Positions 2,049 to 52,735 of a DNA stretch of 57,649 nt are shown one piece after another. Numbering within the stretch: position 1 is the stretch's first letter; every line of letters begins with the position of its first letter. This DNA is from Chthoniobacterales bacterium (GTDB taxonomy: Bacteria > Verrucomicrobiota > Verrucomicrobiia > Chthoniobacterales > UBA6821). The stretch lies in the NCBI GenBank assembly GCA_019747895.1, contig JAIEQF010000022.1, positions 1-57,649 of the forward strand. Reading direction: 5' to 3'. Made by a program: the position numbers and the translations under genes. The notes beneath the pieces were generated by a model. The model worked only from the letters and a program-made list of their open reading frames with translations. It was not told the DNA's origin and did no database searches.

Positions 2049-2052
2049 TCTT

Positions 2053-2084
2053 GCAGGTTACAGGTTACAGGTTGCAGGTTACAG
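2053..2084. repeat. Family A 7-nt repeat arm (single)
   Basis: Tandem GCAGGTT/ACAGGTT units between the divergent rhlE and msrA starts. No inverted partner arm is obvious before msrA. Confidence 0.8.
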
Positions 2085-7452: not shown

Positions 7453-8652
7453 GGGGCGAAGCCCCAATTCGCCATCACCGGCATGGGAGCTGTCTCTGCT
7501 GGTGGGAAAAATGTTGAAGAGCTATGGCAAAGCGTTTTGCAAGGCCGCGTCAAGGCCGAGCGGTATCAATTCAAGAAGAGTGGTGTTGTGCTGCCTATCT
7601 ATCGCGCTGAGTTACCAGAGCTTTCAAAAAAAGATCAACATCTCGTGAGACAAGCAGATCGAACAGCTCAGCTTCTTTTAGCAGCTGCCCGTGAGGCCTG
7701 GAACAATGCTCAGCTGACGAATTCAACTTATGCAAAAGATCGCATCGGTATCATCATTGGAAGTTCGCGAGGACCGATGATGTTGCAAGAAGAGCAGATT
7801 AGTTCTTTGAAAAAAAAACCAAGTGCGGCGGTTTATAGCACCTCCTCTTCCATGGCCGGCCTTCTTGCTGCAGCTTTTTCAATTGAGGGACCTTCTTTTG
7901 TCGTGGCTTCTACCTGCACCTCCGGAGCAACAGCACTTGCCATGGGGCAGCAGCTCCTTCAGTCAGGTGTCCTTGACCTTGTCTTGGTTGGTGGTGTAGA
8001 TGCACCTTTAACAGAGTCGCTCTTGGAGCAGTATCGCGCAGCGGGAGTTCTTGCTGAGCAGCAGGATCCATCGATGGCACTGCGCCCCTTTGATCGCAAA
8101 CGGTCCGGAACTGTTTTGGGTGAAGGGGCTGTGGTCGTAATGTTGGAGTCCGAAAAGTTAGCATTGAAACGCACTGCGCCAATTATTGGTAAACTCCATG
8201 CTGTTGCTTTGCAGAGTCATCCTGGCCGTCGCGCCAGTCTTGATCCTCAAGGAAAGGCGCTGCAGCAAGTTATAAAGGGATCTTTGGAGCAAGCCCTGTT
8301 GACGCTTGATCGTATTGGCGTTGTTCATTTACATGGAACGGGAACCAAACAGAATGATCTGATCGAAAGTTGTGCCGTCAGCTCTATTTTTGGAAACCTT
8401 GTTCAACAGCCAATTTCATGGGCCAACAAGAGTATTACCGGTCACATTCTGGGAGCATCGCCGCTTTTCCAATTAGTTCTTGCTTTGCAAACAATGAGGC
8501 ACAGGTGGGTGCCTTCGTTGGTTCACTGTGATCAGCTTGATCCAGCCTGTCCCATCCGCGTGAGTCGGGGAGAACTGATCGCAGCCTCCCCTGCGCTCTG
8601 CCTTAATTCTGGATTCTGGGGGAACGTTTCGAGTATTGTGATTTCACCATGA
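7402..8652 (+). CDS. Beta-ketoacyl-ACP synthase, KAS II (FabF)-like
   Basis: A condensing enzyme that extends acyl chains on acyl carrier protein. The thiolase-fold catalytic Cys-His-His set is present: Cys172 in ASTCTSGATAL, His311 in HLHGTGTKQND and His348 in SITGHILGAS. At 416 residues it has FabF length. The N-terminal FAITGMGAVSAGG strand is essential to the fold, and no ATG, GTG or TTG lies between it and the ATG at 7402. The preceding residues PPLVTRYSLPVTG, encoded by the family B repeat, must therefore be translated. There is no acyl carrier protein or other fatty-acid gene next to it, so housekeeping and specialised lipid roles cannot be separated. Confidence 0.88.
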   Translation: MLPQNPPLVTRYSLPVTGAKPQFAITGMGAVSAGGKNVEELWQSVLQGRVKAERYQFKKSGVVLPIYRAELPELSKKDQHLVRQADRTAQLLLAAAREAWNNAQLTNSTYAKDRIGIIIGSSRGPMMLQEEQISSLKKKPSAAVYSTSSSMAGLLAAAFSIEGPSFVVASTCTSGATALAMGQQLLQSGVLDLVLVGGVDAPLTESLLEQYRAAGVLAEQQDPSMALRPFDRKRSGTVLGEGAVVVMLESEKLALKRTAPIIGKLHAVALQSHPGRRASLDPQGKALQQVIKGSLEQALLTLDRIGVVHLHGTGTKQNDLIESCAVSSIFGNLVQQPISWANKSITGHILGASPLFQLVLALQTMRHRWVPSLVHCDQLDPACPIRVSRGELIAASPALCLNSGFWGNVSSIVISP

Positions 8653-16302: not shown

Positions 16303-16324
16303 AGATGGAGGTTAAAGAATACAA

Positions 16325-16465
16325 ATTGCGGGTTACGGATTACAGGAAATTTTTTCATTTCTCTTTTGACGAAATGAGCCGCTCCACTTAGCGTACCAGG
16401 CAGCAGAATAAGAAATCGTCAAAGCGATTGTTCCTGCGACCTGTCCCCTGCAACCTGTAACCTGC
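16325..16465. repeat. Family A bracketing element (M20 peptidase / smc)
   Basis: A degenerate left arm (16325-16346, GCGGGTTACGGATTACAGG) and an inverted right arm (16433-16465, ending in CCCCTGCAACCTGTAACCTG) enclose ~85 bp. The right arm ends two bases before the smc start codon, leaving no room for a Shine-Dalgarno site. Confidence 0.8.
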
Positions 16466-20181: not shown

Positions 20182-20434
20182 AGCCGCAAACAAAGAACAC
20201 AAAAAGAATGCAACTCGCTCGCTCCCGCGAGTCTCGCCCCTTTCGGGGCTGCCTTCGGCAGTCGATCCGGCGGCTGCCACGCCGCACGTATGTTTTTATA
20301 AAAAAAATCTAAGTGTTAAAAACTGAAGTCGTTTTTCAATTTTCTATGATCACAAGCTTTTGAAGTTTCAAGCTTATCTACGCTTGTCATTCTCAAAGTC
20401 TTAAAATTTTTTTGAGTTCTTTGTGGTTAATTCT
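20155..20434. repeat. Family C bracketing element with GC-rich module (smc / GT8 copy 1)
   Basis: The left arm (20155-20210, CACCACAAAGATCACAGAGC and AACAAAGAACACAAAAAG) begins inside the smc 3' codons. The inverted right arm (about 20408-20434, GAGTTCTTTGTGGTTAATTC) ends 8 bases before the next start codon. The GC-rich module is nested within. Confidence 0.8.
20199..20316 (+). repeat. GC-rich multi-hairpin module, copy 1
   Basis: A ~118-bp unit with four successive small palindromes (CTCGCTCCCGCGAG, CCCCTTTCGGGG, CTGCCTTCGGCAG, GGCGGCTGCCACGCCGC), then CACGTATGTTTTTATA and a poly-A stretch. A nearly identical copy lies inverted at 43895-44020. Confidence 0.85.
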
Positions 20435-24399: not shown

Positions 24400-25023
24400 A
24401 ATATTCAAGGTCGCAAATTGCGACTTTGAAGCAAGGCGCCAATATCTATTAGGCTTTGGCCATTTTTTACATGAGTGCCGTTACTATTGTGTTATTTTTT
24501 CAGCATCATCAAAAAGCGCAATGTGCATTTCAGAATCAAGAGCCGCTACATCCCAGATGTCATTCCCTCGGAGGCAGGAAAACAAGCCAATATCGATTTT
24601 GATTCGATCTTTTATGAAAGTACGATCTCTCTCCTTCTTGGAAATGTTGTATTCTTTTTGTGAAACTATATCACTTCTTCGAGAACTATAGTAAAATTAC
24701 TTAGAAATTACAGGGAAGAACGCAGGGATTTTTAGAAAAGGCCAGGCCGAAGACCGAGCGCTATCGAAACGATAACGTGACGGGATGAGAACGCAGTCTT
24801 TTCCTAAAAATGACAAGTCAATTGCTTGTAAGTTCTAAGTAATTTGACTATAAAATGAAGTTCCTCAGCGTCCTAGATTCCAGCCTCTGCGGGAACGACA
24901 GTTTATTAGAATTGTTGAATAGTATTGAAATAAGATATTCCTACTTTTTCAGAAATGTCACATAAGTGAAACATGAGTAGTAAAAATAAACATTCATTTT
25001 CAAAAATCGTCCGTTTGTTCTGA
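24400..25023. other. Gene-free stretch with MITE copy 2
   Basis: This 624-bp gap contains a short palindrome GTCGCAAATTGCGAC just after the GT8 stop (24410-24424; possibly a weak terminator), the MITE at 24687-24852 and a decayed REP-like piece. A 62-codon frame at 24475-24663 has no recognisable similarity and I do not call it a gene. Confidence 0.6.
24687..24852 (+). mobile_element. MITE copy 2 (166 bp)
   Basis: The left end TATAGTAAAATTACTTAGAA has one mismatch to the perfect inverted terminus; the right end is TTCTAAGTAATTTGACTATA. Inside, TTTTTAGAAAAGG and CTTTTCCTAAAAA are also complementary. Same orientation as the other two copies. Confidence 0.9.
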
Positions 25024-27027: not shown

Positions 27028-27040
27028 GGAGGAATAAAGG

Positions 27041-27179
27041 CTACAGGTTGCAGGTTGCAGGTTACAGCAAAAGTTAGTTAAAAACCAAAAAAACGATTTT
27101 TCTCAACCTCTCATTTTAAAATTTTACTGTCCCCTGTTCTCTGCAACCTGTAACCTGTAACCTGCAACCTGTCTCCTGC
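27041..27179. repeat. Family A bracketing element (dinG / Lpt-type permease)
   Basis: The left arm (27041-27067, ACAGGTTGCAGGTTGCAGG) starts 13 bases from the dinG start. The inverted right arm (27128-27179, TGCAACCTGTAACCTGTAAC and continuing) ends 5 bases before the next ATG. The loop is ~60 bp. Confidence 0.88.
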
Positions 27180-28315: not shown

Positions 28316-28333
28316 ATAAATCGATTGAAAAGA

Positions 28334-28510
28334 ATAGCCACAAAAGAACACAAAGGGCACGAAAAATAAGAAATATATGGGGGAATGATTTCTTTTATAA
28401 GCCTACTGATTTTGCTGAACAACCGATATCTCAAGGCTGTCTATAGGCAGTACAGGATTATAAATTTTTGATTTTTTTCTTTGTGTTCTTTGTGTTCTTT
28501 TGTGGCTATT
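28334..28510. repeat. Family C bracketing element (Lpt-type gene / hypothetical)
   Basis: The left arm (AATAGCCACAAAAGAACACA, then AAGGGCACG) and inverted right arm (TTTGTGTTCTTTGTGTTCTT, then TTGTGGCTATT) enclose ~110 bp with a decayed palindrome (CTGTCTATAGGCAG) in the loop. Confidence 0.88.
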
Positions 28511-28523
28511 TTCTTTTTTTAAC

Positions 28524-29034: not shown

Positions 29035-29186
29035 GTAACGAGTAACGAGTAATGGGTAACGAGTTTTTTTAAGATCGACAACGCATTCAATCATCGTTTT
29101 CAACAGTATTAATGAACTTTCAGAAAGAGGATAACTCAGAACATAGTGTCTCAGGACCCGTTACTCGTTACTCGTTACCCGTTACA
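29035..29186. repeat. Family B bracketing element (hypothetical / dusB)
   Basis: The left arm (29035-29066, GTAACGAGTAACGAGTAATG) begins 7 bases after a stop. The inverted right arm (29157-29186, CCCGTTACTCGTTACTCGTT) is inside the dusB frame. The dusB ATG is in the loop. Confidence 0.88.
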
Positions 29187-31037: not shown

Positions 31038-33986
31038 CTACCCAGCCACTCCGCACAATGCTGCCCATGTTGGAGAGATGGTTGCATCGAGTGCTCCGAG
31101 CTCTTCAAAATGCCCATCAAGAATTAATTTAATGAGGCGCTCCGCCTCTTGCCAAGCTGGTTGGATCATAGATAAGTCGAAGGGTTCGCTAATGCCGGCT
31201 GATTCTGGATGAATGGGAAGTTGGAAAAAACAAAGATCTGTATTTTCAATAGTTGGCAAAGGCAATCCTGATTCTCTCGCTCCTTTCAATTGAGGTGCTA
31301 ATTTCAAATAGAGAGGGAGTTGAAGGTCGTGCCACAAGATTATTTCTTTCTGCGACTTGAAATGAGTTCGATTGGGAGTTTCTTTTTTCCACTCTTGACG
31401 ATGGGATGTTTTGTAATCAAGGAGCAACCAGCGCTTTTTTTCTGGATGCCAATCGAGGCGATCAATGCGTCCTTGGAGGAGCAACGAGCGTCCATCTTCA
31501 AGATGGATGAGCTCTTCAACGAGTGAAGGAGAATCACTTTTTCCTTCTGCCGCAATTGTTATCCAGCCTTCGGAACGATGTGCTGCTTCGGCTCGTGCAA
31601 AACCTTTTAAGGCGCGCAATAGTTCTCCTTGTTGAGAGGCAACAGCTGGAGCTGGGTTCCAGCCAAACTGCCATTGAAAAGACCTTTCTAAGGCCTGCTC
31701 CAGCCAGCTAGAAAAAACGGATTCTTTTTTTTCTTCCTGCAATGATGCCTCCGCACTGAAAGCTCCTAAGATGCGATGTATCAGCACACCAAATTGAGAT
31801 GGCGTCATTTCACTTGGAGTTTCCAAAACTTCTTGCAACTTTAAAACATGCTGAAGATAAAAAAGTCGCGGAGATTTTAAATATGTTCTGAGTGCCGTGA
31901 CATTGCAGGTTACAGGTTGCAGGTTGCAGGTTGCAGGTCGCAGCAGAAAAGAATCGTCAGTCGTTGTTCGTTGCTCGTTCCTATCAGCATGGCTGTCACT
32001 ATTTGATAACTGAACATGATTGAAAATATATTTGTCATCTTGAGGGCCTGTAACCTGTAACCTGCAACCTGTAACCTGCTGCAAAGCCGCGTTAACCTGC
32101 CGCGAATCGGCTTGAGTGAGCGCTAAGACACGGTGTGGCAGCGCTGCGGCCGAACATCCCTGTAAGAGCAAGCGACTCGGGCGCACTGGTTCTCCTCGTC
32201 CGTTATAGCGCGGAGCCAGAACAGCAACGCCGCCTTCGTGTTGTCGCGAGGCTAAAATCAGCTGAAGATAATAATGATCGCGAGCTAACTGTTCTTCGGA
32301 AGAGCCGAGGCCGAGCTTCTTGCGAAGGCGTTCTGAGAGCAACGGATCATTTTTTGAAGAAGCGGGAACAGCGCCCTCATGAAAAGAAGTTAGCACCAGC
32401 GAGGGAGTGTCTTCTGCAGCAGCTTCGAGCCATCCGATCATTTCTATGGCTTGAGGCTGCTCTAGCTCAGGAATAGTTTCTTTGCTCAACATTTCTAAAA
32501 GAAACGATAAGAGCTCTGTGCCGCGCCATAAAAAATCAGAGGAAGTAGAAAGCTGTTCCAATTCCTCTACGAGGAGCATTAACTTCTCAAAACATTCTAA
32601 AAAAAAGTGTCCTTCCAGGTCGCTGCGCCTCACGCACTCTTGTTCTAACAAATGGAGCAACAAGGCTCGCCATTGAAGGAGGATCTTTGAGAGAGGCTCG
32701 GGCTCTAAGGCGAAGGCGAATTTTTTTTCCAATTCTACAAGCAGTAAGCTGAGATTTTTTCTTTTTGGAAAAAGGGCCAAATCTTTTTGGTCCAAAAAAA
32801 GTGGAAGATGGTCGCGCTCCCAATCATCTAGTTCCTGAAGTAAGAGCTCCGAAGAAATTTCCAAAGCGCTACTCAGCTTCGTTGCTGAGATCGGATGCCT
32901 GAGAAGATCAGCGATAGCGGCGAGCGAAGGAGGTTCGCCAGGAGCTCGATCTAAGAAATTTTTGAGCGCTTCCAATAAAGCAAAGAGAGAGCTTCCGTGA
33001 AAAAAACGTCCTCCGGCCCATCGTGTTTCAAGGCCGGCAGCAGCACCCGCTTCTCGTAATAGCGGCAATGCTTCTGATTCGGGAGCAACAATTGTGATGG
33101 AAGTATCTGGAGAGGCCTCTCTCCAAGCAGCGATGATTTTCCATGCTTGTGCTGCTTGATCGCGACTTCGCTCGCACGGAACAAGCAACTCCTCCGCGAC
33201 CTCTGCAGGATGTTCTCGCCAGTACGAGGAAATCACGCGTCCATAACAGTCAAATCCCGCCGCATGGGCTTCGGGCGCGATGATAATTACCTCAGGATTT
33301 ACTTTTTGAAAAAAGGAAACAAAGAGTGGAGAAAAATCAACAACGCCTGCTATCAAGATTCGGTGAGGTGTTGTGCATTCTCCTTGTTGCAATTTCCTTT
33401 TCAATATTTCTAAGCGGTCCGCATAGCACCAGTGAGACAAAGTTTTTTGATATTCTTTTTGAAGGCGGGCCAATGCTTTCCATCGAGGTTCCTCTCGATC
33501 TGCTGACTCAGGAAAAAAAGGAGCGTGCTGGAGAAGGACTTCCTCGATGGAAAGGCCGGCCTTTCCAAGCTCGAGAGACACTGTTTCTGCCAAGGAGGCC
33601 ACGCGATAACAAATTTCTTCTTTGGCTGAGGAAATTACTCTCTTAGGAACTTGCTGGATTTCTTGAAGCTCTTGAAGTGTGAGCCTCAGAGCAGCTTGGC
33701 GCCAGGCTAAGAGGGAGATTCCTTTCCCCGCAGCGGGAAGTGTGTTGGGAATTTCAAGAAGAGCAGTGACAGCTTCTTCTAACGTCATGATGACGGGAGG
33801 AATGAGAAGTTGTGATTGCTCCTGCGCTTGGAGTGCTAGTAATTCGAGTAATCTTCGGCCGGCTCTTTTGCCAGGAAGAATCACCACCGTTTCAGAAAGG
33901 TTCGACTGCTGTGCAATCAAGTGCTGGGCAAGCCGAGGGAGCCAGGGTCGATGCCACCCAAAAAAAAGTGGTGAGGATGCAAGCAT
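31038..33986 (-). CDS. AddB-like helicase-nuclease with in-frame repeat insert
   Basis: A 982-residue protein of the AddB/PD-(D/E)XK family that processes double-strand breaks with an AddA helicase (not in the window). The N-terminal half is helicase-like (VVILPGKRAGRRLLELLALQ). The C-terminal nuclease shows LIHRILGAF, LLQGRIDRLDW, LLLDYKTSH and the QLPLYLKL segment. A clear Walker A is not evident, as in many AddB proteins. Residues ~636-695 are encoded by a 180-bp family A element and read VTGCRLQVTG at one end and PATCNLQPVTCNV at the other. They fall just before VTALRTYLKSPRLFYLQ, the domain boundary. It lies two bases after the ltaE stop in the same direction. Confidence 0.85.
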   Translation of the reverse strand: MLASSPLFFGWHRPWLPRLAQHLIAQQSNLSETVVILPGKRAGRRLLELLALQAQEQSQLLIPPVIMTLEEAVTALLEIPNTLPAAGKGISLLAWRQAALRLTLQELQEIQQVPKRVISSAKEEICYRVASLAETVSLELGKAGLSIEEVLLQHAPFFPESADREEPRWKALARLQKEYQKTLSHWCYADRLEILKRKLQQGECTTPHRILIAGVVDFSPLFVSFFQKVNPEVIIIAPEAHAAGFDCYGRVISSYWREHPAEVAEELLVPCERSRDQAAQAWKIIAAWREASPDTSITIVAPESEALPLLREAGAAAGLETRWAGGRFFHGSSLFALLEALKNFLDRAPGEPPSLAAIADLLRHPISATKLSSALEISSELLLQELDDWERDHLPLFLDQKDLALFPKRKNLSLLLVELEKKFAFALEPEPLSKILLQWRALLLHLLEQECVRRSDLEGHFFLECFEKLMLLVEELEQLSTSSDFLWRGTELLSFLLEMLSKETIPELEQPQAIEMIGWLEAAAEDTPSLVLTSFHEGAVPASSKNDPLLSERLRKKLGLGSSEEQLARDHYYLQLILASRQHEGGVAVLAPRYNGRGEPVRPSRLLLQGCSAAALPHRVLALTQADSRQVNAALQQVTGCRLQVTGPQDDKYIFNHVQLSNSDSHADRNEQRTTTDDSFLLRPATCNLQPVTCNVTALRTYLKSPRLFYLQHVLKLQEVLETPSEMTPSQFGVLIHRILGAFSAEASLQEEKKESVFSSWLEQALERSFQWQFGWNPAPAVASQQGELLRALKGFARAEAAHRSEGWITIAAEGKSDSPSLVEELIHLEDGRSLLLQGRIDRLDWHPEKKRWLLLDYKTSHRQEWKKETPNRTHFKSQKEIILWHDLQLPLYLKLAPQLKGARESGLPLPTIENTDLCFFQLPIHPESAGISEPFDLSMIQPAWQEAERLIKLILDGHFEELGALDATISPTWAALCGVAG
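31903..32082. repeat. Family A element inserted in frame in the AddB-like gene
   Basis: The left arm 31903-31943 (TTGCAGGTTACAGGTTGCAG and more) and inverted right arm 32047-32082 (CCTGTAACCTGTAACCTGCA and more) enclose ~100 bp. The total is 180 bp, exactly 60 codons, with no stop in the gene's frame. Confidence 0.92.
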
Positions 33987-35218: not shown

Positions 35219-35325
35219 CCTTAGGGGTCAGTCCTGCCTTTTGTAACATTTAATGACATAGCATGAATTTTAAAACTAATGAAACTAGTGTCAAATGTTA
35301 CAAAAGGCAGGACTGACCCTTAAGG
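35219..35325. mobile_element. 107-bp palindromic element beside tRNA-Phe
   Basis: The ends CCTTAGGGGTCAGTCCTGCC and GGCAGGACTGACCCTTAAGG are inverted, with complementarity continuing through TTTTGTAACATTT and AAATGTTACAAAA and one mismatch near the tip. The loop is ~40 bp. The GGTCAGTCCTGCC end resembles dispersed repeats I associate with Y1 (REP-associated) transposases. The right tip supplies the thiD stop codon. Confidence 0.8.
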
Positions 35326-37040: not shown

Positions 37041-37154
37041 TCAGGTTGCAGGGTACAGCTTTGCAGGTTGCAGGTAAAATTAAGGTCTTCGACAAAAATT
37101 ATAACCCATGAAATCAGAATATCAAGTGCCTGTAACCTGCAACCTGTGACCTGA
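37041..37154. repeat. Family A bracketing element (YugP-type / M24 peptidase)
   Basis: The left arm (37041-37075, CAGGTTGCAGGGTACAG and GCAGGTTGCAGGT) starts 2 bases from the YugP-type start. The inverted right arm (37129-37154, CCTGTAACCTGCAACCTGTG) ends 9 bases from the M24 stop. Confidence 0.88.
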
Positions 37155-38784: not shown

Positions 38785-38971
38785 AGCAGGTTGCAGCTTT
38801 TCAGGTTGCAGGTTACAGGAATATTTGGGTTTGATAACAAGTAGTTCAACCTAATTTAGGTTCAAAAACATATCTCTCTGTTTTCAAGTCATGGCCCCTG
38901 TGTTTCCATATCTGCAACTAGATACTTTGTTTTTTTTTCTGCAACCTGCAACCTGTAACCTGCAACCTGTC
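38785..38971. repeat. Family A bracketing element (rpsN / CorC-like)
   Basis: The left arm (38785-38819, AGCAGGTTGCAGCTTTTCAG, then GTTGCAGGTTACAGG) starts 3 bases after the rpsN stop. The inverted right arm (38939-38971, TGCAACCTGCAACCTGTAAC) lies within the downstream coding frame. Confidence 0.88.
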
Positions 38972-40270
38972 TTCGATTCCGGCGACGTTATTTTTTTTAA
39001 GCTGGCAGCGATTGTTGGACTTGTTTTGTTAAACGGGTTCTTTGTGGCGTGTGAGTTTGCCATTGTCAAAATTCGTCCCAGCCAAATCGAGGCACTCCTA
39101 GATCAAAAAGGTAATCGAGCTCAGCATGCTCGTCATATCACGCAGCACCTCGATGCCTATCTCTCGGCCACGCAGCTTGGCATTACGCTGGCGAGCTTGG
39201 CGCTCGGTTGGGTTGGAGAGCCTTTTCTCAATTCACTGCTGACGCCGCTTTTTCTTTCCATCGGAATTGGATCAGAAAAATTAATCACCTCGATCTCCTT
39301 TTTTGTGGCCTTCATGCTCATCACTTCCTTGCATATTGTCCTGGGAGAACAAGCGCCTAAGACGATGGCCATTCGCAAGCCAGTTCCTATCATGCTTTGG
39401 TTGGGCCCACCATTGGCGCTTTTTTATACGATCTTTCGCCCCATCATTCATCTTCTCAATAGTGCTTCGACGGGATTACTTCGCTATGTTTTCCGTCTGG
39501 AGCCAGCTAATGAGACCGAATTAGTGCATAGTGAAGAGGAGTTACGACTCATTTTGGGGGAGAGCACAAAGACCGATGAGATTACGCCACTAGGACAAAA
39601 ATTAGCACTCAATGCTCTCGATCTTCGCTATCGTGTGGTCCGAGATATCATGACTCCTCGCAGTGACGTGATCTTTTTTGATATCAATAAAAGTTTTGAA
39701 GAAGAGTTAGCTAAGGTTATCGCCTCGCAGCACACGCGTTTTCCTATCTGTCGCGCAGAACTCGATGAGGCATCGGGCCTCATTCACATCAAAGATCTTC
39801 TGGAGCTCGTGCATGCAGGAAGAAATAATCTTTTTGAAATTCAACGGCCAGTGCTTCACGTTTCTGAAATGATGTCGCTAGAAAAATTACTTAGTTTTTT
39901 CTTACAGCGGCATGCTCACTTTGCTATCGCAGTTGATGAATATGGAGGAACAGTTGGTGTTGTGACGCTCGATAATGTGCTCGAAGAATTAGTTGGCTCG
40001 ATTCAAGACGAATTCGATACGGCAGATGAAGAGTTTTATCGCATCAATGAAAATGAATTTGAGGTAGCGGGGACGCTCGCGTTGCATGACCTTGCTGAAA
40101 TGTGTGATTTAAAAATTTCTGAGACAGAGGTTAGCACCGTAGGAGGCTATGTTACTCAACTTCTAGGACATCTTCCAACACGAGGTGAAGCGGTGGCGGT
40201 TGCTGATTATACAGCCACCATCACGGAGACCGATGGACGACGGGTATTGAAAGTGAAGTTTACAAAATAG
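38891..40270 (+). CDS. CorC/HlyC-type CNNM membrane protein (DUF21 + CBS + CorC_HlyC)
   Basis: A 459-residue inner-membrane protein. The N-terminal DUF21/CNNM domain has three membrane segments (AAIVGLVLLNGFFVACEFAI, SATQLGITLASLALGW, SFFVAFMLITSLHIVLGEQA). Two CBS motifs follow (VVRDIMTPRSDVIFF; FAIAVDEYGGTVGVVTLDNV), then a C-terminal CorC_HlyC domain. Family members are linked to Mg2+ or Co2+ efflux and resistance. No start codon lies between the family A repeat arm and the first membrane segment, so residues LQPATCNLQPV are repeat-encoded. The ATG at 38891 sits in the loop of that element. Confidence 0.87.
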   Translation: MAPVFPYLQLDTLFFFLQPATCNLQPVFDSGDVIFFKLAAIVGLVLLNGFFVACEFAIVKIRPSQIEALLDQKGNRAQHARHITQHLDAYLSATQLGITLASLALGWVGEPFLNSLLTPLFLSIGIGSEKLITSISFFVAFMLITSLHIVLGEQAPKTMAIRKPVPIMLWLGPPLALFYTIFRPIIHLLNSASTGLLRYVFRLEPANETELVHSEEELRLILGESTKTDEITPLGQKLALNALDLRYRVVRDIMTPRSDVIFFDINKSFEEELAKVIASQHTRFPICRAELDEASGLIHIKDLLELVHAGRNNLFEIQRPVLHVSEMMSLEKLLSFFLQRHAHFAIAVDEYGGTVGVVTLDNVLEELVGSIQDEFDTADEEFYRINENEFEVAGTLALHDLAEMCDLKISETEVSTVGGYVTQLLGHLPTRGEAVAVADYTATITETDGRRVLKVKFTK

Positions 40271-40299
40271 CCGCAAAAGAAAGTCAAAAAAAGAAAGGA

Positions 40300-40390
40300 A
40301 TAGCCACAAAAGAACACAAAAAGCACAAAAAAAGATTGTTAGAGGCTGTCAAAAATTCTTTGTGTTCTTTGTGCTCTTTTGTGGCTATTA
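40300..40390. repeat. Family C bracketing element (CorC-like / pgeF)
   Basis: The left arm (ATAGCCACAAAAGAACACAA, then AAAGCACAAAAA) and inverted right arm (TTTGTGTTCTTTGTGCTCTT, then TTGTGGCTATT) lie only ~20 bp apart, the shortest loop in the window. Confidence 0.88.
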
Positions 40391-41834: not shown

Positions 41835-42074
41835 ATTAACCACAAAGAACGCAAAAGATGAAAGAAGAGAAGAAGAAATTAGCCACAAAGAGCACGAAGA
41901 AATCAAAGAAACTAGCAGATGTTTTTCTTGAAAAAGAAGCTAACGCTTTATTTGATGCCGCGTTCCTGCTGCTTATAAGCAGCAGGAAAAGATAAGATCT
42001 TCAAAAAGCAAAAAAGGTTTTTCTTTCAAAGCCTCTTTGATTTCTTTGTGGCCATTCTCTTTTTTGCAGTTAAT
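41835..42074. repeat. Family C bracketing element, doubled arm (TPM / lemA)
   Basis: Two left arms in tandem (TTAACCACAAAGAACGCAAA and TTAGCCACAAAGAGCACGAA) face right-arm sequence at 42035-42074 (TTTGATTTCTTTGTGGCCAT, then TTTTGCAGTTAA). The perfect palindrome at 41963-41988 sits in the loop. Confidence 0.8.
41963..41988. repeat. Perfect 26-bp palindrome, TTATAA centre
   Basis: The half-arm TTCCTGCTGCTTA is exactly repeated in complement. It shares CTGCTTATAAGCAG with the palindrome at 23236-23263. Confidence 0.85.
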
Positions 42075-43737: not shown

Positions 43738-44047
43738 CAATTCACCACAAAGAGCACAAAGCCGCTAAAGCGGCACACAAAGAACACAAAAAATTTTTTA
43801 TAAAAAAATTTTAAGGTTTTAGAATGGCAAGCGCAGATCAGCTTGAAGTTCGAAAACTTGTCATCATGGAAAATTGGAAAAACACTTTCTATACACACTT
43901 AGATTTTTTTTATAAAAACATACGTGCGGCGTGGTAGTCGCCGGATCGACCGCCGAAGGCAGCCCCGAAAGGGGCGAGACTCGCGGGAGCGAGCGAGTTG
44001 CATTCTTTTTGTGTTCTTTGTTTAATCTCTGTGATCTTTGTGGTGAA
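43738..44047. repeat. Family C bracketing element with GC-rich module (rhodopsin / pfkA)
   Basis: This ~350-bp gap between convergent genes holds a left arm (43738-43794, CACCACAAAGAGCACAAAGC, with CCGCTAAAGCGG inside), a right arm (44004-44047, TTTGTGTTCTTTG and TGATCTTTGTGGTGAA) and the GC-rich module. Confidence 0.8.
43895..44020 (-). repeat. GC-rich multi-hairpin module, copy 2 (inverted)
   Basis: Nearly identical, in reverse orientation, to 20199-20316, including all four palindromes and the ACACTTAGATTTTTTTTATA-type edge. The pair flanks 23.7 kb. Confidence 0.85.
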
Positions 44048-45310: not shown

Positions 45311-45571
45311 GTGCCTTCCCCTTATCGGCCATTAGGACCTATTCCCAACCTGCTAGAAGAAGAGCAACAGGCCGCACATTTTGTTTCGGATGGTCGCAAT
45401 TTTTTGGATCAACACGGAGTCGATTTTTTTCTGAGCTATACATCTGATATTGCTGGTAATCCTGTAGAAGGAGCCAATCCCAATGGTTTTACCTATGCCG
45501 ATTTTTTCTACCTCGGTGGTGTTTTTAAAATGCAGGAACTATTTGGATGGCCTCCTGGAGGATCGGTATAG
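45311..45571 (+). pseudogene. Truncated OprB-type carbohydrate porin, cut by MITE copy 3
   Basis: Only the N-terminal ~85 residues remain. DQHGVDFFLSYTSDIAGNPV, GFTYADFFYLGGVFKMQELF and GWPPGG match the opening strands of OprB outer-membrane sugar porins (usually ~400 residues or more). The frame then enters the MITE, and its stop is the TAG of the element's terminal TATAG. No signal peptide precedes it; the GTG start with AGGAGG 6 bases upstream would give an unexported product. The remaining porin sequence is not found after the MITE, so the gene is broken at both ends. Confidence 0.75.
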
Positions 45572-45732
45572 TCAAATTACTTAGAAATTACAGGGAAGAA
45601 CGCAGGAATTTTTAGAAAAGGCCAGGCCGAAGACCCAGCGCTATCTAAACGATAACGTGACGGGATGAGAACGCAGTCTTTTCCTAAAAAGGGCAAGTCG
45701 ATTGCTTGTAAGTTCTAAGTAATTTGACTATA
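45567..45732 (+). mobile_element. MITE copy 3 (166 bp)
   Basis: Perfect 20-bp terminal inverted repeats: TATAGTCAAATTACTTAGAA at the left and its exact complement at the right. It interrupts the porin gene. Confidence 0.93.
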
Positions 45733-45980
45733 ACAAAAAAAATTGAACGTTTCCTTTTCTGGGGAGTCTATTACATTACACAGCCTTTTGAACATTTGTT
45801 CTTAGCGAGTCATCGCGATCTGTTTTTGGTTTTTCAGGTCGAGTAACGGTGGCTCGCTTTTTTTATCCGTTTACAGCCTTGAACGGATATTTTTTATCTA
45901 AATTAATAAAAAACATTTCTTTTTAAAAAAAGATCTTATACTTTTCTCAGCTTCATTCAGAAAACTCTTGTTCCCCATTT
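45733..45980. other. Gap between MITE and the secreted protein gene
   Basis: AT-rich, with a strong terminator at 45864-45895 and likely the promoter of the downstream gene in the poly-A/T region after 45900. No coding frame is convincing. Confidence 0.5.
45864..45895 (+). terminator. Rho-independent terminator
   Basis: TATCCGTT pairs with AACGGATA around a 10-base loop and is followed by six T. It probably belonged to the gene now reduced to the porin relic. Confidence 0.75.
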
Positions 45981-50828: not shown

Positions 50829-50830
50829 AG

Positions 50831-50862
50831 CAGGTTACAGGTTACAGGTTGCAGGGTACAGG
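50831..50862. repeat. Family A 7-nt repeat arm (single, proS / gmhA)
   Basis: CAGGTTACAGGTTACAGGTT and further units start 2 bases from the proS start codon in the divergent spacer. No inverted partner is seen before gmhA. Confidence 0.8.
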
Positions 50863-50939
50863 TGGTAGGAAAAAATTTGGTGATTTAATTTTCGCTTTTT
50901 ACGACTTGACCCTTGAAACATCATCCCCAAGATAAGCAC

Positions 50940-52702: not shown

Positions 52703-52735
52703 TCTGTAACCTGCAACCTGTAACCTGTAACCTGC
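52703..52735. repeat. Family A 7-nt repeat arm (single, mqnD / aroC)
   Basis: TCTGTAACCTGCAACCTGTA and further units end 4 bases before the aroC ATG. A degenerate family C-like piece (GAAAGAACACGAAAAAG at about 52621) lies near the mqnD start, so this spacer mixes two families. Confidence 0.8.

Follow-up and report, generated by a model that had tools for sequence, protein, structure and literature searches.

The 5' to 3' stretch analysed here (the window) is a whole contig of 57,649 bp from the source genome G000, and its AddB-like gene contains, in frame, two inverted arrays of a 7-bp word around a loop. Where did this segment come from, and what has it become within the protein? It belongs to an uncultured verrucomicrobium from fresh water (Chthoniobacterales/'Spartobacteria'), whose genome of 2.06 Mb is 96% complete. 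Its relatives are likewise uncultured freshwater Verrucomicrobiota, labelled Chthoniobacterales or Spartobacteria. The genomes compared were MAGs; G002 and G005 correspond to MAGs of the 'DeepCast' water-column series and Lac Pavin. G005 is nearer to G000 (dS 0.46) and G002 is farther (dS 1.86, about 1.9). We consider it likely that the segment is one of hundreds of interspersed hairpin repeats with tandem-heptamer arms, and that it later became a translated linker.

The AddB-like gene and its element

NCBIfam gave AddB-type matches to the gene product (P0001), all of them under cut-off (TIGR02786, 73.6 bits against a cut-off of 486.5); because the AddB equivalog cut-off was not passed, we call the gene AddB-like only. 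Pfam recognised PDDEXK_1 at residues 695-905 (E 9e-24). The RecB-type motifs were intact, and the nuclease motif (H737, D842, D857, K859, Q889, Y893) was invariant among 11 relatives. The reading frame was open over all 982 residues, in agreement with the preliminary description, which had placed the element in frame without a stop. Repeats are prone to misassembly and all of these are metagenome assemblies, so an assembly artefact or a dead, frameshifted gene was weighed. However, the same element was present in frame in the independent G002 assembly, the catalytic residues were invariant and the frame was open. A dead gene was rejected, and the artefact reading as a whole has a negligible probability. 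Sequence conservation supports a gene that is alive.

The anatomy of the element is given in Table 1. The TRF units were TTGCAGG for the left array (5.9 copies) and CCTGTAA for the right array (4.6 copies), both 7-bp. When compared with shuffled sequences, the element folded with a z of -6.7 as DNA and -5.3 as RNA, and 0 of 200 shuffles equalled it in each case. The exact word CAGGTTRCAGGTTRCAGG occurred 159 times in the 2.06-Mb genome and its reversed pattern 0 times, excluding a chance origin; the heptamer element is real. The same count largely refutes local expansion, by which the linker would have grown by slippage from its own sequence, unrelated to the intergenic repeats. Heptamer arrays do slip, and the linker differs in length in all relatives. 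However, slippage cannot give two inverted arms of one word, and the same 18-mers stood at 159 against 0 in the control, making this origin very improbable.

Table 1. Coordinates in the window of the AddB-like gene, its element and the other heptamer or nonamer elements
Feature	Position	Strand	Remarks
AddB-like helicase/nuclease gene, P0001, 982 aa	31038..33986	-	ORF without internal stop; hosts the element
Heptamer-armed element in the AddB-like gene	31903..32082		two inverted CAGGTTR arrays plus loop
G-rich arm, CAGGTTR x 5.9 (about six heptamers)	31903..31943	+	TRF
Loop, 103 bp	31944..32046		between both arms of the addB element
Inverted arm, YAACCTG x 4.6	about 32047..32079	-	TRF
Degenerate second-family heptamers (TCGTTGTTCGTTGCTCGTTCC)	31961..31981	-	nested in the addB-element loop
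Family A element, intergenic	27038..27179		G005 orthologous spacer: GGCTGAA / AGCCTTT arms
Family A element	16309..16465		left arm degenerate
Family A element	37042..37153		same spacer: G005 CGCGAAATT nonamers, G002 GAAGATA heptamers
Family A element	38802..38970		over 5' end of 459-aa ORF (38891-40270, +)
Single family A arm	2051..2084	+	
Single family A arm	50830..50863	+	
Single family A arm	52704..52735	-	
Family B element, GTAACGAG arms	29035..29185		G005 same word; G002 TATAGGC/CTACAGC arms
Family C element, 9-mer ACAAAGAAC arms	28327..28520		G005: AAGGCTA heptamers
Family C element	40293..40389		G005 same spacer: GTAAAGAG/CTCTTTAC arms

In the gene sense, the element corresponds to residues about 636-694 (QQVTGCRLQVTG...LLRPATCNLQPVTC). 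AlphaFold predicted disorder for this insert, its pLDDT block means being 25-36, whereas the folded domains on either side were well modelled. The loop showed weak homology to its G002 counterpart (z 3.0) and none to the other family A loops of the window or to the other loops examined. An Rfam scan of the window returned tRNA and a 16S start, with no further match.

The addB linker in relatives

P0001 was aligned with the orthologues of the genus. The G002 protein (71% identical over the whole alignment) shared the element, with position and frame both unchanged (contig VHCR01000139.1). In G005 (85% identical) the element was absent and 31 other linker residues (QKKSIDCIASEQSHHSLFHGRPIDSQLIERL) stood instead. 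The end of this G005 linker (FHGRPIDSQLIERLNVT) was homologous to the linkers of G001 and G004, indicating that the element replaced linker sequence. The 60 added codons (180 bp) of the preliminary description are thus the element's own length, whereas the net gain over the element-free G005 protein was 39 residues (982 against 943). Absence from a close relative was borne out by G005; flanks that join cleanly were not, and its 31-residue linker rules out that 60 codons were simply inserted. Among the relatives compared, none had a clean empty site for the addB copy. The preliminary description had named an unrelated segment of the same length at this place in related proteins as refuting it; this was found in part, the linker differing in length and sequence in every relative. 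In G004 it contained an unrelated palindromic element of 61 codons, and a copy of the same palindrome lay elsewhere in the G003 addB gene. Together with the heptamer element, these show a linker that is tolerant and has often been invaded. At about residue 371 of G002 addB there was another in-frame insert (HGGPSPGSAQRDAERADEDFGAGLYSTHPPSLNRNPTQSASGSRKPPQDQRERCGLNA), of unassigned family.

The element is old, since it is common to G000 and G002 (synonymous divergence about 1.9). G005 is nearer to G000 yet lacks it, so that either loss by recombination or a double insertion must be assumed. The element was probably lost from G005 addB by recombination; alternatively, two independent insertions may have hit one spot.

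Over the 16 codons of the right arm, 6 synonymous differences and 0 nonsynonymous ones separated G000 from G002 (binomial p 0.0005 given the proportion of synonymous sites, with two informative sequences). The loop appears to have evolved about neutrally between the two genomes, and the flanks of the element had a dN of 0.15-0.22 with synonymous sites near saturation. The identical right-arm peptide and the strong RNA hairpin would be consistent with an insert kept for a function, for example as a regulatory mRNA hairpin or a useful linker. However, G005 does without the insert, the G002 arms mismatch with each other at three positions, the loop seems neutral and the pLDDT of the insert is very low; such a function is therefore quite unlikely.

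Heptamer arrays in the genome

Exact words numbered 159 in G000, 47 in G002 and 49 in G005, and the same CAGGTTR words were absent (0) from G001, G003 and G004. The broader AGGYTRM pattern was largely confined to the host's family, although some further families of the order had it at low counts. In G048, G056, G068, G084, G104 and others the reversed control pattern (GGAMRTYGGAMRTYGGA) was itself abundant, showing that families elsewhere in the order have tandem heptamers of other kinds. Loci around AddB genes, mostly of other phyla, held only 13 arrays in 841 kb, and these were of other words.

Tandem arrays with a period of 5-12 numbered 94 in 337.5 kb of G000, the period being 7 in 70 of them and 9 in 16; the same search of a Markov control found no arrays. 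The array words formed related series (CAGGTTR; AGGCTRN; GTAAYGAG; the nonamer ACAAAGAAC). Most arrays were intergenic, at a median of 16.5 bp from the nearest gene end, and 20 of 113 fell in ORF models, the in-gene counts resting on 337.5 kb, a sixth of the genome. When arrays were paired, 26 of 27 pairs were inverted and convergent with the G-rich unit inward. Of the 70 heptamer arrays, 32 had a strong inverted partner on the inward side and 0 had one on the opposite side, and a partner arm was recognisable for only about half of the arrays. Flanks were shared between loci in 33 pairs inside (loops) against 6 pairs outside. Loops common to several loci support copying of arm plus loop.

In-frame arrays in other genes

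Heptamer arrays were also in frame inside murD, a cysN-like gene, rsmH, a dnaX-like gene and a 705-aa ORF. G000 and G005 had the murD array at an identical position, and G001, G003 and G004 lacked it; solved MurD structures had a gap in the alignment there. Its word was CAACCTG in one sister species and TTCAGCC in the other, giving the peptides SLQPATCNLQS (G000) and LQSSAFSLQPL (G005). In the cysN/APS-kinase-like gene the array was present in G000 only. Both of these insertions were single arms, with cleaner junctions than in addB. A two-armed element was found in rsmH of G002, with AGCCTCC-type arrays in rsmH of G000 and G005, and the array of the dnaX-like gene sat in a linker. Insertions in murD, the cysN-like gene and rsmH thus make the tolerance claimed for addB a general one, and heptamer repeats can be built into working proteins.

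The heptamers in frame in these genes all read CAA or CAG, although TAA was the reading of 53% of such heptamers across the sampled genome stretches. In genes with arrays, the array was used in a stop-free frame. A 7-bp unit would be read as a 7-residue unit, which would stay open if the single in-frame TAA per 21 bp were CAA or CAG.

The rsmH gene of G000 (C36:29093-30205) and its G005 and G002 orthologues had an N-terminal extension (MNLTYPSSLFSPAFSIALAETWDHLAARLHRKMALAASG) conserved in the clade. G002 C102, taken at one point as a free 254-aa ORF, was rejected as such and is rsmH with this extension. The array at C38:13096, listed in ORF 1027, probably lies upstream of that gene's true start and was set aside.

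Same sites with other words

Orthologous spacers of the window, G005 and G002 had the same build with a different word at most sites (Table 1), and the word was kept in G005 at only about 1/14 element-bearing spacers. These observations would fit resident arrays, whose positions would be old and fixed while the word is overwritten by ectopic gene conversion plus slippage, with addB as one such site. The same site and architecture with another word in the sister species were seen at 27038, 29035, 28327, 40293 and 50830, in murD, at the cysN 5' end and in rsmH, and the left-arm units of G002 addB share a T to C change (CAGGTT to CAGGCT). However, whole elements were gained or missing at some sites (cysN, and a clean presence/absence site at window 43,7xx where G005 was without the element), showing that elements are also inserted or deleted. 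New elements arriving time after time at tolerant sites would predict the same pattern. Resident arrays are possible as a full account of addB, though we think it somewhat doubtful. We hold as a tentative idea, and a rather improbable one, that words are overwritten from other arrays, lineage by lineage and inside genes too, the peptide of essential enzymes such as MurD having been rewritten along with the intergenic repeats.

Other repeats of the window were observed alongside these sites. A nonamer array (TCTTTGTGT) had about one unit at window 42034-42048 and about seven extra in G005 C181 (reverse complement about 8090-8148), a difference that is slippage within an array. Near-identical copies (96%) of a 167-bp repeat lay at 24687-24853 and 45567-45733, with a part also at the contig start (1-75) and a copy in G005 C24 (97-98%). 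Inverted 129-bp copies with 98% identity, at 20188-20316 and 43895-44023, formed a longer family C composite.

Spread of the copies

We return to an interspersed hairpin repeat turned linker as the preferred reading. The repeats would have spread in one clade of the freshwater verrucomicrobial genus, and in the ancestor of the G000 species and G002 a copy would have taken over part of the disordered helicase/nuclease linker, being retained because the linker tolerates changes of length and sequence and because an array read as 7-residue units can stay open. The insert would now be ordinary translated linker, with its frame and right-arm peptide kept and its loop drifting. In dispersal, arm and loop may have been copied together, non-autonomously, through single-strand transposition of a RAYT-like kind or through ectopic recombination, and copying into tolerant sites would have been followed by loss, arm decay and word change. 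No transposase flanked by heptamers was found, which counts against this explanation, as do the absence of the element from the nearer relative G005, the lack of a clean empty site and the share of about half of the arrays that had no recognisable partner arm. Movement as a unit, as first proposed, agrees with the fixed polarity of the arms (26 of 27 pairs inverted) and with loops common to several loci; it does not agree with the single arms in murD and cysN or with words that differ between species at one site.

Mobile REPIN-like units moved by the clade's own RAYT (Y1_Tnp) transposases would fit the looped, inverted doublets that the elements have in common with REPINs (PMC3116915). Y1_Tnp was found in G000, G002 and G005 and not in G001, G003 and G004, and across 22 family genomes word counts were higher with Y1_Tnp (p 0.0008), in a test confounded by relatedness. 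However, the RAYT loci had no heptamer arms and one was flanked by a GGGGTCAGTCCTGCC palindrome, its more likely partner; G006 and G013 had 22-29 words and no RAYT, and single arms occur. RAYT was therefore set aside as the mover despite its co-occurrence in the genus, and the REPIN-like reading is unlikely.

Two other palindromes were noted. One (GGGGTCAGTCCTGCCTTTTGTAACATTT) lay at window 35219-35325, with a clean empty site in G005, and also beside a RAYT (Y1_Tnp) gene at G000:C18; it is a likely RAYT partner because it adjoins that gene. The other, in G003 and G004 (L063, L064, L219-L228, including the G004 addB linker), was nearly perfect and about 210 bp long, with ends TTAACCCGGATATTTCATAC and some 150 scored matches in each of the two genomes. 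Inside host ORFs (493-996 codons) it was read in one constant frame (LTRIFHTDHLRRPGSQMDAALISKSSSGSMYSYSRRQTSSLALPHQPSRPPRHDQYEISGL), making it a strong candidate for an RPE-like, protein-coding MITE.

Comparison with known systems

The GGGAATC / GGGGA(C/T)T heptamers of Xanthomonas and Nostoc form dispersed tandem arrays, for the most part between genes and close to gene ends (Rehm et al. 2015, PMC4692102). Convergent inverted pairs number about 70 per Xanthomonas genome; 7-11% of the heptamers are intragenic, the word does not vary, and two species have 83% of positions in common (PMC4692102). The present elements resemble Xanthomonas GGGAATC in their dispersed 7-bp tandem units and convergent inverted pairs. 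Unlike there, the elements here use several words side by side, and orthologous sites mostly have different ones. CAGGTTR, AGGCTRN and GTAAYGAG contain no GGG; without the GGG tract of GGGNATC, the G-quadruplex idea is not directly transferable. In-frame insertion in conserved enzymes was outside the subject of PMC4692102. The TAACTGA repeats of Beggiatoaceae, cyanobacteria and Bacteroidetes are intergenic heptamer arrays, some in ORFs, for which all frames of one strand yield a heptapeptide (MacGregor 2015, PMC4679880). Unlike the elements here, they are direct, almost never inverted, consist of one word and stand just upstream of start codons. Cyanobacterial STRR heptanucleotides (Calothrix, as cited in PMC4692102) include several tandem heptamers in one genome, as here; in the literature consulted, hairpin pairing and coding insertion are not described for them. 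Borg tandem repeats in ORFs yield disordered protein segments from units that are multiples of three (PMC9879509), whereas the unit here is 7 and only the total length keeps the frame. REPINs of Pseudomonas and others are two inverted short repeats with a variable spacer that form a hairpin (PMC3116915). The likeness lies in the hairpin from an inverted doublet and in RAYT genes in the same genomes; the difference lies in tandem heptamer arms without a REP palindrome and in the lack of a heptamer-flanked RAYT gene among those found.

The Rickettsia-like behavior of the preliminary description was upheld in part: the element is palindromic and, like its kin, in frame in conserved genes, but clean flanks and a homologous full-length family were lacking. 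The arms of the Rickettsia and Wolbachia palindromic elements (RPE/WPE) are not known to be tandem repeats. These elements are about 100-150 bp long and are tolerated in frame in conserved protein genes (PMC2229807). Palindromic, in-frame cases like RPE are addB and, with both arms, rsmH of G002, with single arms in murD and the cysN-like gene. By contrast with RPE/WPE, the arms here are short tandem words, the loops mostly differ and most copies are intergenic.

Nearest among the known systems are the inverted GGGAATC heptamers of Xanthomonas and, as to behavior, the RPE. We call the elements a variant of heptameric interspersed inverted repeats that work like RPE when inside genes, since they have traits in common with each known system, yet a defining feature of each fails. 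The spread and word change of heptamer repeats, long noticed in many bacteria, become testable here, as does the way in which selfish or neutral DNA turns into a protein linker. Tandem-heptamer repeats enter conserved genes repeatedly, with different words at the same site in sister species. Rickettsia and Wolbachia are the best-known sources of protein-coding palindromic repeats; here such repeats occur in an unrelated lake-water lineage and are of a different kind.
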